Below, piece after piece: positions 375 through 17,288 of a DNA stretch of 64,000 bases. The notes under the pieces were generated by a model. It did no database searches, was not told where the DNA came from, and saw only the letters and a program-made list of their open reading frames with translations. Source of the DNA: Geobacter sp. AOG2 (GTDB taxonomy: Bacteria > Desulfobacterota > Desulfuromonadia > Geobacterales > Pseudopelobacteraceae); the NCBI RefSeq assembly GCF_019972295.1, contig NZ_BLJA01000001.1, positions 1,884,117-1,948,116 of the forward strand, given 5' to 3'. How positions within the stretch are numbered: the first letter of the stretch is position 1; each line of letters begins with the position of its first letter. Position numbers and translations under genes: made by a program.

Positions 375-875
375 ATGAATTTACGTGGAGATATATCGCC
401 GTCCATCCTGGTGCTCGGCATCGGAAATTTGGTGATGAGTGACGACGGGGCAGGCGTGCGGGTTGTCCAGGAACTCCAGAAACGGTATCTCTTCCCCCTC
501 CATGTGAAGATCATGGATGGGGGTACCTTGGGGCTGGACCTCCTGCCCAGTTTGGAGGGGATTGAGCGGCTTTTGGTGGTGGATGCGGTCGAAACGGGAG
601 GCAAACCGGGAACCATGGTGCAACTGTCGGGCGAGGAGTTGCCGATTGCACTTCAAACCAAGGTTTCTCCTCACCAGATGGGGCTCAAGGATCTTCTTGT
701 CGTGGCAGAGTTGATGGGGTGCGCCCCCCGGGAGATGGTGTTGGTCGGCATCCAGCCAGCCTGCATCGAGATGGGTGATGAACTCTCGAAAAATGTTGCT
801 GAACAACTTGAAGAAATGATTTCCAACGTACTTATAAAATTAAGAGAATGGAATGTTGAAGCCAATTTGATCTAG
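375..875 (+). CDS. hyaD: Hydrogenase maturation protease (HyaD/HybD/HycI family)
   Basis: Endopeptidase that removes the C-terminal tail of the NiFe-hydrogenase large subunit once nickel is in place. The family signature is near the N-terminus: ILVLGIGNLVMSDDGAGVRV, with the conserved acidic residues in MSDDG; MDGGTLGLDLLP and the later SPHQMGLKDLL histidine region also match. About 166 residues, normal for the family. I chose the ATG at 375, preceded by a GGGGAGGGGAG purine-rich site; a TTG at 351 is in frame but lies inside the terminator T-run. Its place right after the hydrogenase b-cytochrome supports the role. The 3' end overlaps the convergent anti-sigma kinase gene by 4 bp. Confidence 0.88.
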   Translation: MNLRGDISPSILVLGIGNLVMSDDGAGVRVVQELQKRYLFPLHVKIMDGGTLGLDLLPSLEGIERLLVVDAVETGGKPGTMVQLSGEELPIALQTKVSPHQMGLKDLLVVAELMGCAPREMVLVGIQPACIEMGDELSKNVAEQLEEMISNVLIKLREWNVEANLI

Positions 876-1300
876 CCAAGCTTCTTTTTCATTTCCAGCA
901 CATTCCCTTCGTTGGTTTTTTTGTACTCCACGGAATCCATCAATGACCGGATGATGAAGATGCCGCGCCCCTTCTCGCCGAGCTGATCCGCTTCGAAGCA
1001 GGGATCGGGCACTGACGTGAGATCAAAGCCCTGGCCGCTGTCATAAACCTTGATGCAAATCTCTTTATCCGAAGCGCTGATGCGTATCTGGATATCCTTG
1101 TTGGGATCGGCGGCATTGGCGTGTTTGATGGCGTTTACCATGGCCTCGGTCAGCACCACATTGAGGTGGTGCGCCAAGGCCTCCCGGTCCCCCTTGAAAC
1201 GATCCAATTCCCGCACCATGTTCTCACCGATCCTGCCGATCATGCTCAGGTAACGGGTCTGATTAGGTACAACGATCTCGATGTCGATGGTATTTTTCAT
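872..1300 (-). CDS. RsbW-like anti-sigma factor / serine kinase (HATPase_c)
   Basis: Small GHKL ATPase of the RsbW/SpoIIAB type. Such proteins bind a sigma factor or other target and phosphorylate a STAS antagonist on serine. Visible ATPase motifs: N-box LTEAMVNAIKHA, G1 box VYDSGQGFD and G2 box GEKGRGIFIIRSLMD. About 142 residues, normal for the family. The start at 1300 (MKNTIDIEI) follows GAGG at a suitable distance; a longer frame to 1375 would run into the STAS gene. It sits 49 bp downstream of the STAS gene and in the same operon as a SpoIIE-type phosphatase, so together they form a partner-switching set. No sigma factor gene is next to it, so the final target is unknown. Confidence 0.88.
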   Translation of the reverse strand: MKNTIDIEIVVPNQTRYLSMIGRIGENMVRELDRFKGDREALAHHLNVVLTEAMVNAIKHANAADPNKDIQIRISASDKEICIKVYDSGQGFDLTSVPDPCFEADQLGEKGRGIFIIRSLMDSVEYKKTNEGNVLEMKKKLG

Positions 1301-1349
1301 GACAACCTCGCGTGTGAGAGAGCTGCATGTACGTAAATGAAGGTTGCGC

Positions 1350-1685
1350 TCAGTAGCTCTCGAGCGCATCGTCAACGGTCTGAAAGATATCGAATACCCG
1401 GTGCAGGCGGGTCAGCTCGAACATCGACTTTACCTGGCTTTGAAGTCCGGAGAGCTTGAGGCTTCCCTGGCGCGCGGCGGCATTCTTGAAGCCGGATACC
1501 AATACTCCCAAGCCGGAACTGTCGATAAAACGCACCTCCTTGAGGTCGATCAACAGGTCTTTCGTCCCGCTGTCGAACAGCCGGTTCAGTTCTGTCTTGA
1601 GTTCCTCGGAATTGTGGGCGTCAAGTCGCTCCTCCTTTACGTAGACGACCTTGACGGCCCCGTTTTCCTCGATTTTATATTGCAT
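1350..1685 (-). CDS. STAS-domain anti-sigma factor antagonist (RsbV/SpoIIAA type)
   Basis: Single STAS domain, 111 residues. The core VRFIDSSGLGVLVSGF contains the serine pair that the partner kinase phosphorylates in this family. The start at 1685 has a strong ribosome site (AAGGAGTT, 7-8 bp upstream). It lies between the transporter-phosphatase gene (221 bp upstream) and the RsbW-like kinase. Expected role: when dephosphorylated by the SpoIIE domain it captures the kinase and frees the kinase's other partner. The family is clear; the pathway it controls cannot be read from the sequence. Confidence 0.9.
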   Translation of the reverse strand: MQYKIEENGAVKVVYVKEERLDAHNSEELKTELNRLFDSGTKDLLIDLKEVRFIDSSGLGVLVSGFKNAAARQGSLKLSGLQSQVKSMFELTRLHRVFDIFQTVDDALESY

Positions 1686-1906
1686 GGCGTAACTCCTTTC
1701 GTTCTGTGCCCCCCTGGCGCCAGGGCCGGGGAACGGTGGTGGATGTAGTGTTCCGTGCGGTTAGTTCGTACTCGTCATTAAGGCTCTTAAGGCCGTTGCC
1801 GTTGTTCTGCCTCCTTGATGCAGACCGTGCGACACCTGTGTCGCCGCGCCTCGGCAGCGGCCAAAAGAGCAAAGGAATTACTTCCCACGGCTAACCGCAC
1901 GATACA

Positions 1907-4900
1907 CTAAAGTATCTTGAGCACAACCAGCGAAATATCGTCCTGGAATGTCTCGGAAGCGGTGAAGTCGCCGACCGCCGCATAGAACGCGTCGATGATC
2001 TCCTTGGCCGGCAGGTGCCGCAGAGTGTGCAGGAGAGAGCATACCCGCTCATTTCCGTATAATTCGTCATTCCCGTTACGCGCTTCGGTCAACCCGTCCG
2101 TATAGAAGAGTAATACATCGCCCGCTTTGAGTTCAAAGCTGCGCTCCTCGAATACCACCGAGGTCTTGACGCCGAGGATCAATCCTTCCGCATCCAGTTC
2201 GATGCATGAATACTCACCATCGCGACTGATCATGGGCCGGTTGTGGCCGGCATTGGCGAAAGAGAGGCGACCGGTGGCGGAGTTGTATTTGGCGTAGAAC
2301 ATGGTGATGAAAAGTTCGGCGCGGGTCAGATCATCATAAAGCTGGCTGTTGAGGATCTGCAGGATGGCGCTGGCGCTGTGGGCCGAATTGACCTGGGCAC
2401 GCAGCAGGGTGCGCACTTCTGCCATGATCAGGGCCGCACCGACACTGTGTCCCGAAACGTCGGCGATCAAGAGATCGATGGTGTGGTCGTCCCGCTTGAA
2501 AAAATCATAATAGTCGCCCCCCACATGCGCGGCCGAGATGCAGCGACCCGCCATGTCGATCCCGAAGGTTTCCGGAGCGGCGTCGGGCAGGAGCGATATC
2601 TGGATTTGCTGGGCGATTTCCATGTCCCGCATGACCCGGGCCTTTTCCAGAAGTGCCAGTTCCTTCCCGGTTCGTTCACGCTCCTTGGCCTCCATCTCCA
2701 GGACAATGGTGACCGCCTGGGCCAACTGACCTGCCAGGCTGCACAACAGGCTGATAAACTCTTCAGTGAATATACCGGTAATTGATTTGGAAAAAACCGA
2801 TAGAACGCCTAGTGATGGTTCTCCCTCGCGGAAAATGGGGAGATACGCGCAGGAGACAATCCCCTCCGCCAGCGTCTGTTCAAAGTTGACGGTCATCCCG
2901 ATTTGGCTGGTGTCGTTGACGAAGTGAGCTTTGCGGTCCAAAAGCGCCATGTCCCAATAAGGGGCGCTCTCCATGAACCAGTGGTTCCGGTTGAAGGGGC
3001 GCCGGTTGCTTCCCTGATAGCTTTTGACCGCGAGGGTGCCGTTGCCATCGCGCAGTTGGATGAAGGCCACATCCAGCTTGAATTCCTTGAGCAGCAGGTT
3101 GAGCAGGTCATCCATAATGATCTGGAGGTCAAGGGTACGGTTGATGATCTCGGATGCCTTCAGACGGACGTAGAGTGCTTCGCGGCTCTGGTCGAGGGAG
3201 GTGCGGACTGAGCTGAAGATGTCGTAGACCGATTCCATGCGCGACCCCATGTCGGAGAGGAAACTGTCCACAATGGCCCCGGCGGCGGCGGCCCCGACCG
3301 AACCGGCCAGGGTTTTCTCGGTGAAACGCTTGAGGTTTGGGAGTTCAAATTCGGAAACGTTACCTTCCGCATCAATCTCGCGATCCCCAAGGTGGTTGCT
3401 TATGGCGTGGTGTGCGTCCGCTTCTCCGATAAACTTGGCCATCAGGTTAACGAACTGGCTGATGGTAACCGGTTTGGAGAGGCGTTTGGTCTCGGTCGGA
3501 TGGTCGGGGCGTTCGAGATTGTAAGTGCCGATGAAGCGGCGTACTTGTTCACGCTCAGGCTCGTCCTGGCGCAGCAGGATCGAACAGAAGATATATGCAC
3601 TGATATTGAAAAGCATGCTCCAGAACAGGGAGTGGCTCCACAGGTCCATGTTGCTGAGGCCGAACAGTTCGGTCGGTTTGAGGAGCCCGATACCGAAAGG
3701 ACCTTTCGTGAGCAAGTCCGTCTCAAGCCAGCCGGATTTGCCGAACGAGGGGAGCAGCAGGGTGTAGGCCCAGATCAGAAAGCCGAACAGGATGCCGGTA
3801 ATGGCGCCGGCCTTGTTACCGCGCTTCCAGTAGAGGCCACCCAGCATTGCCGGCATGAATTGGCAGGCGGCCGAGAAGGAGATCAACCCCATATTCACCA
3901 ACATGTAGGTATCGCCCACGATCCGGTAGTAGAAGTACCCGAGGAAGACCACCATGAAGATACCCAGCCGTTTCAGGTTGATCAGCAGATATGGGAACCA
4001 GGGTTGTGGGGTAAACCGGACAATGACCGGCATGAAGATGTTGTTGAGAAGCATGGTGGATATGGCTACCGACTCCACCATCACCATCCCGGCTGCGGCC
4101 GACAGCCCCCCCAGGAAGGCCAGCAGGGCAATGGTGCCGTGCCCGCTGAGAAGCGGGATGTTGATGACGAAAAAATCGGCGCCGCTGCTGCTGCCGGTAG
4201 TCAGGATGCCGCCCAGGGCAATCGGCATGACGAACAGGTTAATCAGAAAGAGATAGGCGGGAAAGAGCCACATGGCTTTGGTAATGTGCTTCTCGTCCGA
4301 GTTCTCGATAACCATGACGTGGAACTGGCGTGGCAGGAGCATGATGGCCGCCATGGACATGAAGAGCATGGTGAATGACGGTATGTAGCCCGGATCGTTG
4401 CGAGCACCGCCAAAGGTGAAAAGCTGTTTGAACAGTTCGGGCCGGGCGGCATGAAAACGGGTGAAGATATCGTTGAACCCATCGAACAGGTAGTAGGTGA
4501 CGAAGATGCCCACGCCGAGCAAGCTGACCAGTTTGACCAGTGATTCAAAGGCCACGGCGGCGATCAACCCCTCATGGCGTTCGCTCGATACCAGTCTGCG
4601 GGCACCGAAAATAATACTGAAAATCGACAGGATCAGAGCGAGTAACAGACCGGTCGGCACCGTCAACTCCGATTCACCGTGGGGTATGTGGATACGGTTG
4701 CCCTGAGAGCCGCTGATCAGGTAGAAACTGGTGGAAACGGCTTTTATCTGCAGAGCGATGTAGGGCATGATGCCCAGGATGGAGATCAGGGTCACCAGGG
4801 CGCCCAGCCAAAGAGATTTGCCGTAGCGCAGGCTGATAAAATCGGCGATTGAGGTTATATTGTTTTCCTTGCTGATCTTAACGATGCGCCGCAAGAGAAA

Positions 4901-5155
4901 AAACCAGGAAAAAGCGGTGAGGGACGGCCCGACATAAATCATCAGAAAGTCCAGACCGGCGGTAGCCGCTTTGCCGACGCTGCCGTAAAAGGTCCACGAC
5001 GTACAGTAGACTGCGATGGACAGGGAGTAGACGTAGGGGTTACTGATGATGCTCCGGCCGGTTTCCTTACGGTGGTGGGCGTACCAGGCGATCAGGAAGA
5101 TCAGCGCGGTATAGATGGTTGATATGATGGCCGCGTGGGCGAAGCCGGAGTTCAC
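1907..5155 (-). CDS. Sodium:solute symporter fused to STAC, GAF and SpoIIE/PP2C phosphatase domains
   Basis: A 1082-residue multi-domain membrane protein. Residues ~1-545 are an SSF-type symporter with about 13 hydrophobic helices (for example SNPYVYSLSIAVYCTSWTFY near residue 38). Residues ~570-650 resemble the STAC domain that links SLC5 transporters to signalling modules (TLAGSVGAAAAGAIV). A GAF domain follows (~660-830), then a short coiled linker and a SpoIIE-type serine phosphatase (~850-1082). The phosphatase keeps its metal-binding aspartates: GGDYYDFF, IADVSGHSVGAAL, FYTDGLTEARN and QDDISLVVL. The GTG start overlaps the stop of the small membrane protein gene (GTGA). With the STAS and RsbW-like genes downstream, the likely job is to turn solute transport or binding into dephosphorylation of the STAS protein. 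The substrate is unknown. Confidence 0.88.
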   Translation of the reverse strand: MNSGFAHAAIISTIYTALIFLIAWYAHHRKETGRSIISNPYVYSLSIAVYCTSWTFYGSVGKAATAGLDFLMIYVGPSLTAFSWFFLLRRIVKISKENNITSIADFISLRYGKSLWLGALVTLISILGIMPYIALQIKAVSTSFYLISGSQGNRIHIPHGESELTVPTGLLLALILSIFSIIFGARRLVSSERHEGLIAAVAFESLVKLVSLLGVGIFVTYYLFDGFNDIFTRFHAARPELFKQLFTFGGARNDPGYIPSFTMLFMSMAAIMLLPRQFHVMVIENSDEKHITKAMWLFPAYLFLINLFVMPIALGGILTTGSSSGADFFVINIPLLSGHGTIALLAFLGGLSAAAGMVMVESVAISTMLLNNIFMPVIVRFTPQPWFPYLLINLKRLGIFMVVFLGYFYYRIVGDTYMLVNMGLISFSAACQFMPAMLGGLYWKRGNKAGAITGILFGFLIWAYTLLLPSFGKSGWLETDLLTKGPFGIGLLKPTELFGLSNMDLWSHSLFWSMLFNISAYIFCSILLRQDEPEREQVRRFIGTYNLERPDHPTETKRLSKPVTISQFVNLMAKFIGEADAHHAISNHLGDREIDAEGNVSEFELPNLKRFTEKTLAGSVGAAAAGAIVDSFLSDMGSRMESVYDIFSSVRTSLDQSREALYVRLKASEIINRTLDLQIIMDDLLNLLLKEFKLDVAFIQLRDGNGTLAVKSYQGSNRRPFNRNHWFMESAPYWDMALLDRKAHFVNDTSQIGMTVNFEQTLAEGIVSCAYLPIFREGEPSLGVLSVFSKSITGIFTEEFISLLCSLAGQLAQAVTIVLEMEAKERERTGKELALLEKARVMRDMEIAQQIQISLLPDAAPETFGIDMAGRCISAAHVGGDYYDFFKRDDHTIDLLIADVSGHSVGAALIMAEVRTLLRAQVNSAHSASAILQILNSQLYDDLTRAELFITMFYAKYNSATGRLSFANAGHNRPMISRDGEYSCIELDAEGLILGVKTSVVFEERSFELKAGDVLLFYTDGLTEARNGNDELYGNERVCSLLHTLRHLPAKEIIDAFYAAVGDFTASETFQDDISLVVLKIL

Positions 5156-5409
5156 GGTTGTTTGTTCTCCGGGGATTTATCGGTGGTGTGGCTGACAGCC
5201 AGGGTGAAAAGATATATTACGAAGATGGAAACCGCCCAGCCGAGATAAAAATAGAGAAACATGAGCGGGTAGCCCAGGATGGTGTCCGGCTTATTGAAGA
5301 TATGCAGGAAGGGGAAGTTCATCATGATGAAGCCCATCACGAAGAAAATGACCCATGATTCCCGAAATTGGAGCCTGTGCAGGAGGCTGTGACGCAACCG
5401 ATTCGTCAT
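5152..5409 (-). CDS. Small membrane protein paired with the symporter
   Basis: 85 residues with two hydrophobic helices (ESWVIFFVMGFIMMNFPFLH and LGYPLMFLYFYLGWAVSIFV regions) and a charged tail. The size, the two helices and the position directly upstream of an SSF gene resemble the small subunits (DUF4212/DUF3311-like) that accompany some sodium symporters. It overlaps the kinase-like gene upstream by ATGA and the symporter downstream by GTGA, so translation of all three is probably coupled. The family assignment is tentative; co-function with the symporter is inferred from the overlap. Confidence 0.6.
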   Translation of the reverse strand: MTNRLRHSLLHRLQFRESWVIFFVMGFIMMNFPFLHIFNKPDTILGYPLMFLYFYLGWAVSIFVIYLFTLAVSHTTDKSPENKQP

Positions 5410-6968
5410 GGCATAAGCCTCGCGTAGATCTGACTGGCGAGAGTTCCAGGGGGAGTTGCGGTGGCAATATTCAGTACGGTACCCTCCGAATCATCCGGCG
5501 GTTGGAAGCTGTTTTGCTGCAATTCGAGAATTTCAAGGCGGCCGTCGGAAACACTCTCTCCGGACGATTCCCGTTTGAGCAGGCGGCGTCGCTGCTCCGT
5601 ATCCGGGCAGGAACAGTGCAACACAACGAAGGGCAGGGACAGGCTTGCGGCCAGTTGGCCAAAGCGATGACGCTGCTCGCGGCTGATGAAACAGGCATCG
5701 ATAATGACGGAACGTCCTGCGGCAAGTTCGGCTTCCGCCAGGCGTAGTAGTTCGGCATAGGTAGCCTCGCTTGCAGCGGCCGAGTAAAGTCCTGTTTCGA
5801 ACGGCACATGCATGGCCGTATCCGGTGGCAGGGCCGCCATCTGTTTTCGGACCCTGTCCGAATTGTAGGTTGCGATACCGAGTTCAAAGGCAAGTTGTGC
5901 CGCCAGGGTGCTTTTGCCGCTTCCCGTCAGTCCGCAGGTGATGAATAGTGTGGTTTTCAGGCGTTGTCGTTCGAGATAACCGCGTGCCAGCCGGAAATAG
6001 GCGGCGGATCTGCCACCGGCGAGTTCCCGTTCCTGCGGATCGATGCCGCCGTCGTTCTGGCGGAAACTTTCCACTTTACCCCGCACAAATGCGCGGTAAA
6101 GCTTGTAAAAATCGATCACCTCGCAAAGGCCGGTATCACCCGAAGCGGCCAGATATTCATCGAGCACCGCTTCGGCCAAGTCGCGACGACGGTGGAAGTC
6201 CAGATCCATCAGGAGAAAAGCGATATCGGCGGCGGTGTCGCAGTAACGGAAGCGTTCGTTGAACTCAATGCAATCGAAGATATATATTTTGCCGTCGGTC
6301 AGGCAGATGTTCTCCAGGTGGATGTCTCCGTCGCACTCACGGATGAACCCGCCGGATATACGCTTTTCGAAAAGCTCAGAACGGTTTTTGACGAATGATG
6401 ACACCCACTCCCGGATCACTTCCAACTCATCGGCAGAAAGAGGTGTCTGGTGGTCATCTGCGCTTTGATCGAGGTTTTCCTGCCAATTGGCCATGATCCG
6501 TTCCCGTTGGCCGTATTCGCTGATGGCGGGTGAGGTCGCGGCGGCGTGGTGGAATGCGGCGATGACCCTGGCCACGGCCCGCATATCGGCACTGGTCACC
6601 TCTCCATGCTCCACCAGGCGATCGAGCATCCGTTCGGCCGGAAGCCTCTTCATCTTGACGGCATAGTCGATGATCGGGCCGTCGCCGAAGAACGCTGCTC
6701 CGCCGGGGGACTCCCGGACCTCGACGACCCCCAGGTAGATGTCCGGGCAAAGACGACTGTTGAGTCGTACCTCCTCATGGCAATAAAAGCGGCGCCGATC
6801 GATGGTGGAGAAGTTGAGAAACCCGAAATCCACGGGCTTTTTGATCTTGTAGGCGGTATCGCCTGCCAGGAATATCCAGGAAACATGCGTCTGAATCAGT
6901 TCGACGGAACTGACCACCTCCGGGTAGGCGTCATGTTTCATTAATGATTTTAATATGTTACGATGCAT
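5406..6968 (-). CDS. Two-domain protein: aminoglycoside phosphotransferase-like kinase plus P-loop kinase
   Basis: About 520 residues. The N-terminal ~320 residues resemble the APH/choline-kinase fold: IFLAGDTAYKIKKPVDFGF near the start, the catalytic-loop-like GDIHLENICL, and the metal-site-like IFDCIEFNERFRYCD. The C-terminal ~170 residues are a P-loop NTPase with the Walker A motif GLTGSGKSTLA and a zeta-toxin/kinase-like layout. This fusion is a known uncharacterised bacterial family; real aminoglycoside resistance should not be assumed. The start at 6968 (MHRNILKSL) is preceded by GAGAG; a TTG/GTG-type extension to 7001 is weaker. It is first in the operon with the symporter-phosphatase, which it overlaps through the small membrane gene. 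Substrate unknown. Confidence 0.75.
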   Translation of the reverse strand: MHRNILKSLMKHDAYPEVVSSVELIQTHVSWIFLAGDTAYKIKKPVDFGFLNFSTIDRRRFYCHEEVRLNSRLCPDIYLGVVEVRESPGGAAFFGDGPIIDYAVKMKRLPAERMLDRLVEHGEVTSADMRAVARVIAAFHHAAATSPAISEYGQRERIMANWQENLDQSADDHQTPLSADELEVIREWVSSFVKNRSELFEKRISGGFIRECDGDIHLENICLTDGKIYIFDCIEFNERFRYCDTAADIAFLLMDLDFHRRRDLAEAVLDEYLAASGDTGLCEVIDFYKLYRAFVRGKVESFRQNDGGIDPQERELAGGRSAAYFRLARGYLERQRLKTTLFITCGLTGSGKSTLAAQLAFELGIATYNSDRVRKQMAALPPDTAMHVPFETGLYSAAASEATYAELLRLAEAELAAGRSVIIDACFISREQRHRFGQLAASLSLPFVVLHCSCPDTEQRRRLLKRESSGESVSDGRLEILELQQNSFQPPDDSEGTVLNIATATPPGTLASQIYARLMP

Positions 6969-15688: not shown

Positions 15689-17230
15689 TTACATTCTGGA
15701 TTTGCCCATAAGGCCGGACGGTTTGAAGAGTAGCACCAGCAGGAACAGGACGAAGACCACAACGTCCTTCCAGCCCGACGAGATGTATACCGCTCCGAGC
15801 GATTCTGCCACACCGATGATGATCCCTCCGAGCGTCGCGCCAACGATGCTCCCCATCCCTCCCAGGACGGTGATGACGAACGCCTTGAGGGTAAATGTGC
15901 TGCCTACTTGGGGAAAGATGTAGTATGTCGGTGAAATCAGCGCTCCGGCAGTGGCGGCCAGCGACGCGCCCAACCCGAAGGCAATGATCGACATGCGTTT
16001 GACGTTGATCCCCATCAACTGGGCAGCTTCCCGGTCCTGGGCAGTCGCCCGGATGGCCTGACCGGTATCGGTCTTCTTCAGGAACCAATAGAGGAACGCG
16101 GTAATGATAAAGGTGATGATAAATGAAATGGCCAAGGGAGATGATACGGAAATCCCCGCGCCCCGCTTGTCCGGCTTGATTTTGAACGCCGGGCGAAAAG
16201 ATTGGTAGGTTGCTGCCAGCAAGGCGCGGATCTCGTCGGCGGACTTGCCTGAGACATCCGGCGGGGTGTTATTGTCGCCCGAATCAGTCTTGGCCTCGGC
16301 TGCGGCCGCGTACTTTTCCAGGGCTTGGCGATACAAGTCGTCAGCCGCGGCGCCATTTTTGAGTTTTGCCTGGGAGTACAGGATGAAAGCGGCCCCGTTG
16401 AGGCCATCGTAACTGTCGGATTGCACATCCAGAGCTGCTGCCATCTTACGGGATGCGTCGGCGAAGAGGGACTCCGCCTCCGCGCCTTTCTTCATCGCAG
16501 CCTGCCGTGCGAGAGTCGAGGCCCAGTTATACTTGACATCAAAATCGTCGGGGCTTGTCTTTTCCGCCTCCGCGAACTTCTCATAGGCCTGGACGAAAAG
16601 CCTGTCCGCCTCAGCCCCCCCCTTCAGGAACGCCTCGCCACCGAGGGCAACGCCCCAGTTATTCAGCGCACGGTACTGGTCCGGGCTTATTTTAGTCGCT
16701 TCGGCAAACTTTGAAGCGGCCTCGGTAAACAGGTCAGCGGCTTTGCTTTCGGTTGATGACTTGGCGTCCTTCAGGAGAGAGTTGCCGCGGTTGTACAATT
16801 CTTCATACTTGTCCGGGTTGATGATGGTGGTGAGCACCTGGAAGCTTGCTGAAGAGTATTTGGTCGTTAGTATTTTATAGTCGGAGGTGAACACGAGCAT
16901 CATGGTATTGCTCATGATGAGGCCGAGTCCGATGGTCAGCAGTATCTGGTTTTGCGGCAGGGCATTCAGCACCCTGTTGATGAAGACCTTCTGCAAAAAA
17001 CCGCCATATAGAAACATGACGGGGAGGACAATCAATACCGATACGAAGGGATCAATTCCCGCAAGGGTAAACAAATAGTAGGACAGATACATGCCAAGCA
17101 TGAGAATATCGCCGTGTGCGAAATTGATTACACGCATCACGCCGAAAATTATAGTCAGGCCGATTCCTATCAGGGCATAGACGCCGCCGACGAGTACGCC
17201 GCTGAGCAATGATTGAAGAAATACGGTCAT
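15689..17230 (-). CDS. livH: Branched-chain amino acid ABC transporter permease LivH with a TPR-like insert
   Basis: 513 residues, against ~290-300 for ordinary LivH. Residues 1-120 match the N-terminal half (GGVYALIGIGLTIIFGVMRV, INFAHGDILMLGMYLSYYL) and ~360-513 the C-terminal half (EAA loop GQAIRATAQDREAAQLMGIN; VLGGMGSIVGATLGGIIIGV). Between them, residues ~135-345 are soluble, Ala/Lys/Glu-rich repeats of ~45 residues, such as LFTEAASKFAEATKISPDQY and LFVQAYEKFAEAEKTSPDDF. These resemble tetratricopeptide helices. The insert comes one helix before the cytoplasmic EAA loop, so it should face the periplasm, the side on which LivK docks. Frame and codon use are continuous; it is not an assembly break. 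The ATG at 17230 has GGAG ~11 bp upstream. Confidence 0.9.
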   Translation of the reverse strand: MTVFLQSLLSGVLVGGVYALIGIGLTIIFGVMRVINFAHGDILMLGMYLSYYLFTLAGIDPFVSVLIVLPVMFLYGGFLQKVFINRVLNALPQNQILLTIGLGLIMSNTMMLVFTSDYKILTTKYSSASFQVLTTIINPDKYEELYNRGNSLLKDAKSSTESKAADLFTEAASKFAEATKISPDQYRALNNWGVALGGEAFLKGGAEADRLFVQAYEKFAEAEKTSPDDFDVKYNWASTLARQAAMKKGAEAESLFADASRKMAAALDVQSDSYDGLNGAAFILYSQAKLKNGAAADDLYRQALEKYAAAAEAKTDSGDNNTPPDVSGKSADEIRALLAATYQSFRPAFKIKPDKRGAGISVSSPLAISFIITFIITAFLYWFLKKTDTGQAIRATAQDREAAQLMGINVKRMSIIAFGLGASLAATAGALISPTYYIFPQVGSTFTLKAFVITVLGGMGSIVGATLGGIIIGVAESLGAVYISSGWKDVVVFVLFLLVLLFKPSGLMGKSRM

Positions 17231-17288
17231 TGTAGGCAATCTCCGGGTTCTGGATAAAACAGCGCCATCGAGACAACGGTTGTGGTAG

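Follow-up and report, generated by a model that had tools for sequence, protein, structure and literature searches.

An SLC5-STAC transceptor fused to a SpoIIE phosphatase in a conserved, putatively solute-gated partner-switching set of Geobacter-type bacteria

CbrA is an SLC5-STAC transceptor with a known histidine pocket; it is proton-coupled, and a lysine occupies its Na2 site (PMC13022988). Its companion CbrX is a hairpin peptide whose gene overlaps that of CbrA and which binds the SLC5 domain in the structure. CbrX is dispensable for growth on histidine (PMC13022988), and production of CbrA was reported to need the translation of CbrX but not its sequence (PMC6591292). The STAC domain itself carries the motif LGPx(x)A (PMC4834066). 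Partner switches of the SpoIIE/RsbU kind operate through a phosphatase that acts on a phosphorylated STAS protein, and the free STAS protein then captures a kinase, whose own partner is thereby set free (PMC11418112, PMC12143880); a dimeric-linker mechanism, together with an exchange of kinase and PPM outputs, has been proposed (PMC12143880). Here we describe a locus in which an SLC5-STAC unit is joined to a SpoIIE (PPM) phosphatase and followed by genes for a STAS protein and an RsbW-like kinase. It lies in a stretch of 64,000 nucleotides, hereafter the window, from Geobacter sp. AOG2 (phylum Desulfobacterota, class Desulfuromonadia, order Geobacterales; NZ_BLJA01000001.1, positions 1,884,117 to 1,948,116), whose genome is a single contig of 3.92 Mb.

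The original prediction, made from the letters of the window, read a minus-strand run at 872-6968 as a partner-switching module of five genes, the first three overlapping by 4 bp each. All five genes were found, as were the overlaps (5406-5409 and 5152-5155). In reading order, they encode an APH + AAA_33 fusion (5406..6968, with an ATG at 6968 and the open reading frame, or ORF, open to 7001), an 85-aa two-helix membrane protein (5152..5409), the transceptor phosphatase of 1082 aa with a GTG start (1907..5155), a STAS antagonist (1350..1685) and an RsbW/SpoIIAB-like serine kinase (872..1300; 142 aa from the ATG at 1300, which is most plausibly its start). Pfam reports SpoIIE (1.1e-51) and GAF_2 (3.7e-14) in the large fusion, STAS (2.5e-22), HATPase_c_2 in the kinase (1.3e-26), and AAA_33 (8.9e-30) with a weak APH match (3.7e-05) in the first gene product. 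All five genes are under purifying selection when the window is compared with locus L004 (dN/dS, the ratio of nonsynonymous to synonymous change, of 0.05-0.19), the value for the fusion being 0.067.

At E<=0.01, Pfam did not report SSF in the fusion, and its N-terminal part was assigned to SLC5-STAC because it is homologous to CbrA: residues 8-634 align with the solved CbrA chain 10ed_A (phmmer, E=3e-74). The SLC5 domain spans about residues 1-535 (3551..5155) and the STAC domain about residues 560-634 (3254..3478). The latter is aligned through with CbrA, to residue 634, and forms four helices at 565-633 in an AlphaFold2 (AF2) model; the LGPx(x)A motif is partly retained, here as VGAAAA. The CbrA pocket maps onto Y50, T52, W54, T55, F70, Y74, K208, S267 and F427 of the fusion, and six of these nine positions are identical to CbrA. 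Among the six is the Na2-site lysine, K208, which aligns with CbrA K196 and is retained in 36/37 sequences and, in a wider set, in 32/33 operonic, 6/6 lone and 36/38 kinase-type proteins. The transporter half had been called a sodium symporter, a label that the sequence does not support, K208 being the counterpart of the lysine that sits in the Na2 site of CbrA, which is proton-coupled; with that site so occupied, proton coupling is likelier than sodium coupling, to judge from the alignment. CbrA A56 and F248 are replaced by T55 and S267 in the fusion, and among the kinase types T is found in 37/38, S in 27/38 and A in 11/38. Because T55 and S267 are common in the kinase types too, the pocket does not set the phosphatase form apart. 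Asp69, in turn, may do so, as it occurs in 32/33 operonic and 5/6 lone proteins and is not among the five commonest letters at that position in the kinase types.

The STAC domain is followed by a GAF domain at about residues 663-820 (2696..3169), and residues 663-840 match 2qyb, the structure of a GAF region from a putative Geobacter sulfurreducens membrane protein (E=1.1e-52). The AF2 model contains the STAC helices, the GAF fold, a predicted long linker helix at residues 798-855 (2591..2764; residues 827-839 have a predicted local distance difference test score, pLDDT, <50) and a PPM fold, the last of which Foldseek matches to RssB, Rv1364c, SiaA and SpoIIE. The SpoIIE domain occupies about residues 866-1082 (1910..2560). 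Its metal aspartates, described as intact in the original prediction, are present in 66/66 full-length fusions, and of 14 SpoIIE motif positions in these proteins 13 are invariant, with one glycine replaced in one protein. Neither HisKA nor HATPase_c was found in the fusion by Pfam, its output being SpoIIE. Both domains are present in all 13 kinase-labelled relatives scanned (of 38); eleven of these relatives lie outside the class, and two belong to the order of the window. The phosphatase occupies the place of the histidine kinase in these relatives, a feature that had been overlooked.

The STAS protein exceeds the TIGR00377 cut-off, and its nearest solved relatives by sequence are TM1442, SpoIIAA and RsbV. 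A phospho-serine region had been noted in it, and Ser56 and Ser57 are indeed invariant (27/27). Ser57 (codon 1515-1517) is the predicted phospho-serine, chosen from an alignment with SpoIIAA and its phospho-serine. The ATP-binding boxes of the kinase, likewise noted earlier, are kept in 28/28 sequences (Glu52, Asn56, DxGxGF and GRG). The nearest solved relatives of the kinase by sequence are RsbW and SpoIIAB, and it scores far under the NCBIfam RsbW/SpoIIAB cut-offs (51.8 vs 145 bits, 51.3 vs 135 and 49.6 vs 155.05).

The 85-aa membrane protein is CbrX-like by position and corresponds to the companion expected for such a transporter, another point that had escaped attention. A small ORF (45-115 aa, two or more hydrophobic stretches) terminates close to the SLC5 gene start in 32/38 kinase-type and 21/23 phosphatase-type loci (33/39 and 20/22, respectively, before locus L088 was relabelled), and the two phosphatase-type loci without it are lone copies. 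As a control, such an ORF was found at 23/1500 random positions and at 12/249 starts of other large ORFs. Among close-relative loci, the small gene overlaps the fusion gene by 4 bp in 35 of the 39 that were measurable. The protein matched no Pfam family at E<=0.01, and its AF2 model is of low confidence (mean pLDDT 66.6). DUF4212 (PF13937) gave a weak match in 2/37 members (best E 0.0017), and other families were equally weak. Profiles of the small protein found no chain recognisable as CbrX among PDB sequences; position and two-helix form agree with CbrX.

The gene-order check suggested with the original prediction was run on 49 loci, retrieved with six peptide patterns in a scan that finds close relatives. 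STAS and kinase genes stand behind the fusion in 44 of them; the exceptions are four lone paralogues and a locus whose contig ends inside the gene. The small protein is found in 42 of these loci and the APH/AAA_33 gene in 41, the gaps beyond the lone paralogues being contig ends. At class level, STAS and kinase follow the fusion in 18/19 operonic loci, with a contig end as the single miss, and identity over the 19 operonic loci of L073-L092 is 47-60% for SLC5, 46-59% for STAC and 28-39% for GAF. Of 146 class genomes, 130 match the fusion (E<=1e-100; fragments on broken contigs, e.g. G160, G182 and G193, included), 138 the kinase and 140 the STAS protein (both at E<=1e-15). At E<=1e-60, 132 of 141 genomes of the order match, some of them through just a related sensor half or, in G064, a bare SpoIIE domain. 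Outside the class, 36 of 237 genomes of the phylum (from a set of 247, ten of which lie in the class) give a fusion match at E<=1e-100, and those listed stop short of SpoIIE, at residues 526-842. In this sample the kinase subfamily, too, is found mostly within the class: 10/237 other genomes match it at E<=1e-18 (best 9e-25). Within the collections searched, phosphatase-type transceptors were found in this class alone. There, the module is class-wide, mostly single-copy, and present in named isolates, e.g. Pelotalea chapellei and Oryzomonas japonica, the latter being the closest named isolate among the loci (fusion 92%).

The core set of fusion, STAS protein and kinase is old and conserved over most of the class, and the proposed partner-switching set with a phosphatase fused to the SLC5-STAC unit is conserved as a set. 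The APH/AAA_33 gene, by contrast, did not bear out its place in the predicted module. It has no match in 7/19 operonic class-level loci (at least one of these a contig start), nor in 4/8 loci of a family, f15, that keep STAS and kinase, and it is separable from the core.

Natural deletions are informative about which parts belong together. Sixteen of the 146 class genomes are without a match to the fusion (E<=1e-100), seven of them without a kinase match (1e-15) as well; among the seven, six show no STAS match either, and G106 has one 40%-identical match. In G064 (locus L119), the order is APH, a bare SpoIIE protein (267 aa, 54% identical), STAS and kinase, with no match to SLC5, STAC, GAF or the small protein at the locus. 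Because only the bare SpoIIE is kept there, SpoIIE appears tied to STAS and the kinase, and the small protein to SLC5. Best matches in six other genomes of the same genus fall in the same weak range by match score. In family f15, 8/8 genomes retain STAS and kinase with motifs intact and 4/8 have APH/AAA_33, while the fusion and the small protein have no match in any of the eight loci; a search for a replacement phosphatase in these genomes found only SpoIIE domains of 23-36% identity elsewhere. Since all eight keep the pair without the fusion, the STAS-kinase pair is able to exist without the transceptor.

Lone paralogues of the fusion without adjoining STAS or kinase genes occur at L032, L033, L041, L043, L072 and L086 (two in L086), and at L032, L033, L041 and L043 a divergent gene lies upstream, with a product bearing an N-terminal membrane stretch. 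Damaged copies of the fusion also occur, those at L044 and L048 being apparently frame-broken and that at L088 (genome G199) bearing an in-frame TAG.

When 58 proteins are placed in a tree by their SLC5-STAC part, leaving out the output domain, phosphatase types separate from kinase types on one branch (bootstrap 100; SH-aLRT, the Shimodaira-Hasegawa-like approximate likelihood-ratio test, 99). The split is present in 100% of 200 bootstrap trees, and a 77-row tree agrees on it (SH-aLRT 99). The first tree included 38 kinase types, taken from 40 proteins without a SpoIIE match after L044 and L088 had been dropped as phosphatase types with a broken frame or a stop, and 39 of the 69 proteins with a SpoIIE match. 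From later trees twenty rows were dropped, five for long branches and the rest for thinning. Beyond the 13 of 38 that were scanned with Pfam, the label of kinase type denotes lack of a SpoIIE match. CbrA stands on the kinase side, on a very long branch, and the kinase-type backbone is weak.

Kinase types are spread over the phylum, CbrA of Pseudomonas being also among them. Because the outgroup root is unreliable and the CbrA branch long, the direction of the exchange, from kinase to phosphatase, draws mainly on this distribution and is less certain. When the tree was rooted by ten stand-alone SLC5 transporters, the root fell on a long, lone SpoIIE-type branch (L086b), which speaks against that direction; the program gave a warning that long branches meet, the outgroup stem measures 4.86 changes per column, and the root was judged unreliable. 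We propose tentatively, with slightly more doubt than belief, that SLC5-STAC and the small subunit form a plug-in nutrient sensor whose kinase output was swapped once, at the base of the class, for a partner-switch phosphatase, and that in the core switch of Geobacter-type bacteria solute transport would thereby be coupled directly to the release of a global regulator. Such a swap agrees with the suggestion that kinase and PPM outputs can replace each other behind shared linkers (PMC12143880).

We consider it rather probable that the whole system, observed here as genes, their order, homology, conserved residues, a single output split and parts that are jointly lost or retained, acts as a solute-gated partner switch. 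In this switch, the CbrA-type unit of SLC5 and the small two-helix protein would bind or carry a small solute, probably in a proton-coupled manner, and the conformational state of this unit would reach the SpoIIE phosphatase by way of STAC, GAF and the long, dimeric linker helix. The phosphatase would dephosphorylate the STAS protein at Ser57, and the unphosphorylated STAS protein would capture the RsbW-like kinase. Capture would free the other partner of the kinase, most likely a transcription regulator, e.g. a sigma factor encoded elsewhere, and re-phosphorylation of STAS by the kinase would reset the system. We infer the gating step from the architecture of CbrA; phosphorylation, dephosphorylation, the sign of the gating and the target are putative in the same way. 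The earlier remark that no sigma factor is adjacent holds, in that visual inspection of the window run, the recurrent neighbours and the listed loci revealed none, not all neighbours having been run against a family library. A conserved neighbour was also considered as the target and rejected, as the recurrent neighbours show no recognised regulator. They are, to judge from their sequences, a TPR protein, peptide-transport-like genes, an RluD-like synthase, lgt and other housekeeping genes.

Several observations weigh against a solute-gated switch that releases a sigma factor. The AF2 model of the fusion is of moderate quality (mean pLDDT 69; pTM, the predicted template-modelling score, 0.44), and a scan for promoters and terminators yielded about as many sites as in shuffles. 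A second, shorter sigma factor, called RpoS-like here because the RpoS family matches it, though always below the cut-off, occurs in 28/30 genomes with no link to the module seen; it is missing in module-less G107 and G109 and present in the other module-less genomes. FliA is over its cut-off in 23/30 genomes, and its absence from genomes with the module (G025-G027) and without it (G024, G019) forms no pattern. Family f15, moreover, counts against an obligatory role of the transceptor. Turning to CbrA itself, its kinase is still active without the transporter part when highly expressed, and the signal may be intracellular (PMC7918813, PMC6591292). Deletion of STAC had no visible phenotype in P. 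fluorescens (PMC5715377), and in P. putida it lowered target expression (reported among PMC7918813, PMC5715377 and PMC6591292). In the fusion, too, the solute may exert only weak gating through SLC5.

The same findings on CbrA and on STAC in P. fluorescens favour an alternative in which GAF is the true sensor, of a cytoplasmic signal, and SLC5-STAC serves as an anchor or transports without gating the phosphatase, as do the solved G. sulfurreducens relative of the GAF domain and the existence of G064, which does without all sensor parts. We think this unlikely. Conservation at the pocket and the Na2 site is roughly on a par with kinase-type transceptors, purifying selection on the fusion is strong, and SLC5 and STAC are better conserved across the class than GAF in the 19 operonic loci. 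It is also conceivable that the transceptor acts on another phosphoprotein and that the STAS-kinase pair is an independent switch sharing the operon. The f15 genomes, which hold the pair without the fusion, and the lone fusions without STAS or kinase beside them would be so explained, yet the bare SpoIIE of G064 stays beside STAS and the kinase, seven genomes are without both fusion and kinase, and STAS proteins are known substrates of SpoIIE-type phosphatases (PMC11418112). We consider this reading highly improbable. Possible, though falling clearly short of probable, is a real switch whose released target is not a sigma factor, the effector being STAS itself, a cyclase or another enzyme, in the manner of Sia. 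It would agree with the lack of any recognised sigma-factor gene in the listed neighbourhoods, with RpoS-like and FliA sigma factors that do not follow the module in 30 genomes, and with a phosphatase gene elsewhere in the genome that has a Sia-like build and a SiaB-like neighbour. Against it stand the nearest solved relatives of the kinase, RsbW and SpoIIAB, which are anti-sigma factors.

Other features of the locus and genome deserve mention. A MITE-like dispersed repeat (miniature inverted-repeat transposable element) with terminal inverted repeats of ~20 bp lies between the phosphatase and STAS genes (1746..1909, minus strand). It is ~164 bp long, has 14 further genome copies of 72-84% identity, and was aligned with 11 others; its first bases apparently supply the TAG stop of the fusion. 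The repeat is absent from L004, and the corresponding gaps of L005 and L006 measure just 54 and 59 bp. The 221-bp gap that holds the repeat had no match in phage records, and Rfam found nothing in the window at the gathering threshold and nothing in 10 of 12 fetched repeat copies at E<=0.1. A hydrogenase maturation protease gene (351-875) is convergent with the kinase gene, overlapping its end by 4 bp; a homologue adjoins many of the 49 close-relative loci, and L071-L092 show no match to it. An ORF at 15689-17239 (minus strand) encodes, to judge from its sequence, a branched-chain amino-acid ABC permease-like protein with an inserted, repeat-rich TPR-like stretch. Elsewhere in the same genome, a HAMP-SpoIIE phosphatase followed by a small gene (L003:304-2905) forms a possible second partner switch, the small gene resembling SiaB, and a CBS-SpoIIE protein is encoded at L002:907-2271.

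Known transceptors have a histidine kinase or, reportedly, a cyclase as output; here, by analogy, the same kind of sensor would drive a protein-serine phosphatase. Natural deletions exist as well, the sensor being lost and SpoIIE kept in one case, and the fusion lost and STAS and kinase kept in another. Because the module is class-wide, mostly single-copy and present in named isolates, both the coupling of transport to signalling and the regulator are testable. The open-access literature that we searched describes no SLC5-STAC-GAF-SpoIIE protein with STAS and kinase genes, and the words "transporter" and "symporter" are absent from the text of a survey of bacterial PP2C domain architectures (PMC12088040).

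Among described proteins, the SSS proteins of Actinobacteria with GAF, PP2C_SIG and HATPase_c domains (PMC7918813) resemble the fusion, as compared by description only, in joining a symporter-family domain to GAF and a PP2C phosphatase. They differ in having the kinase-like ATPase in the same protein, and the excerpted text describes no STAS gene or operon for them (PMC7918813). STAC proteins with a GGDEF output, which are mentioned in PMC5715377, share an SLC5-STAC unit with an output other than a histidine kinase, although theirs is a cyclase and not a phosphatase. With RsbU, RsbP and SpoIIE, and their partners RsbV/SpoIIAA and RsbW/SpoIIAB, the system shares the PPM active site, the STAS serine, the ATP boxes of the kinase and the layout of sensor, linker and phosphatase; its sensor, however, is a transporter-like transceptor, no adjacent sigma factor was recognised, and its kinase misses the RsbW and SpoIIAB cut-offs of NCBIfam by a wide margin. 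Finally, among the SLC5-STAC histidine kinases (the literature names CrbS/MxtR and RpuS), CbrA was the one compared by sequence. CbrA/CbrX and the locus described here have in common an SLC5 domain followed directly by STAC, a small overlapping two-helix gene upstream, the pocket residues Y, W, F, Y and F, and the Na2-site lysine; the CbrA type ends in a histidine kinase, whereas the fusion ends in a PPM phosphatase of the SpoIIE kind.

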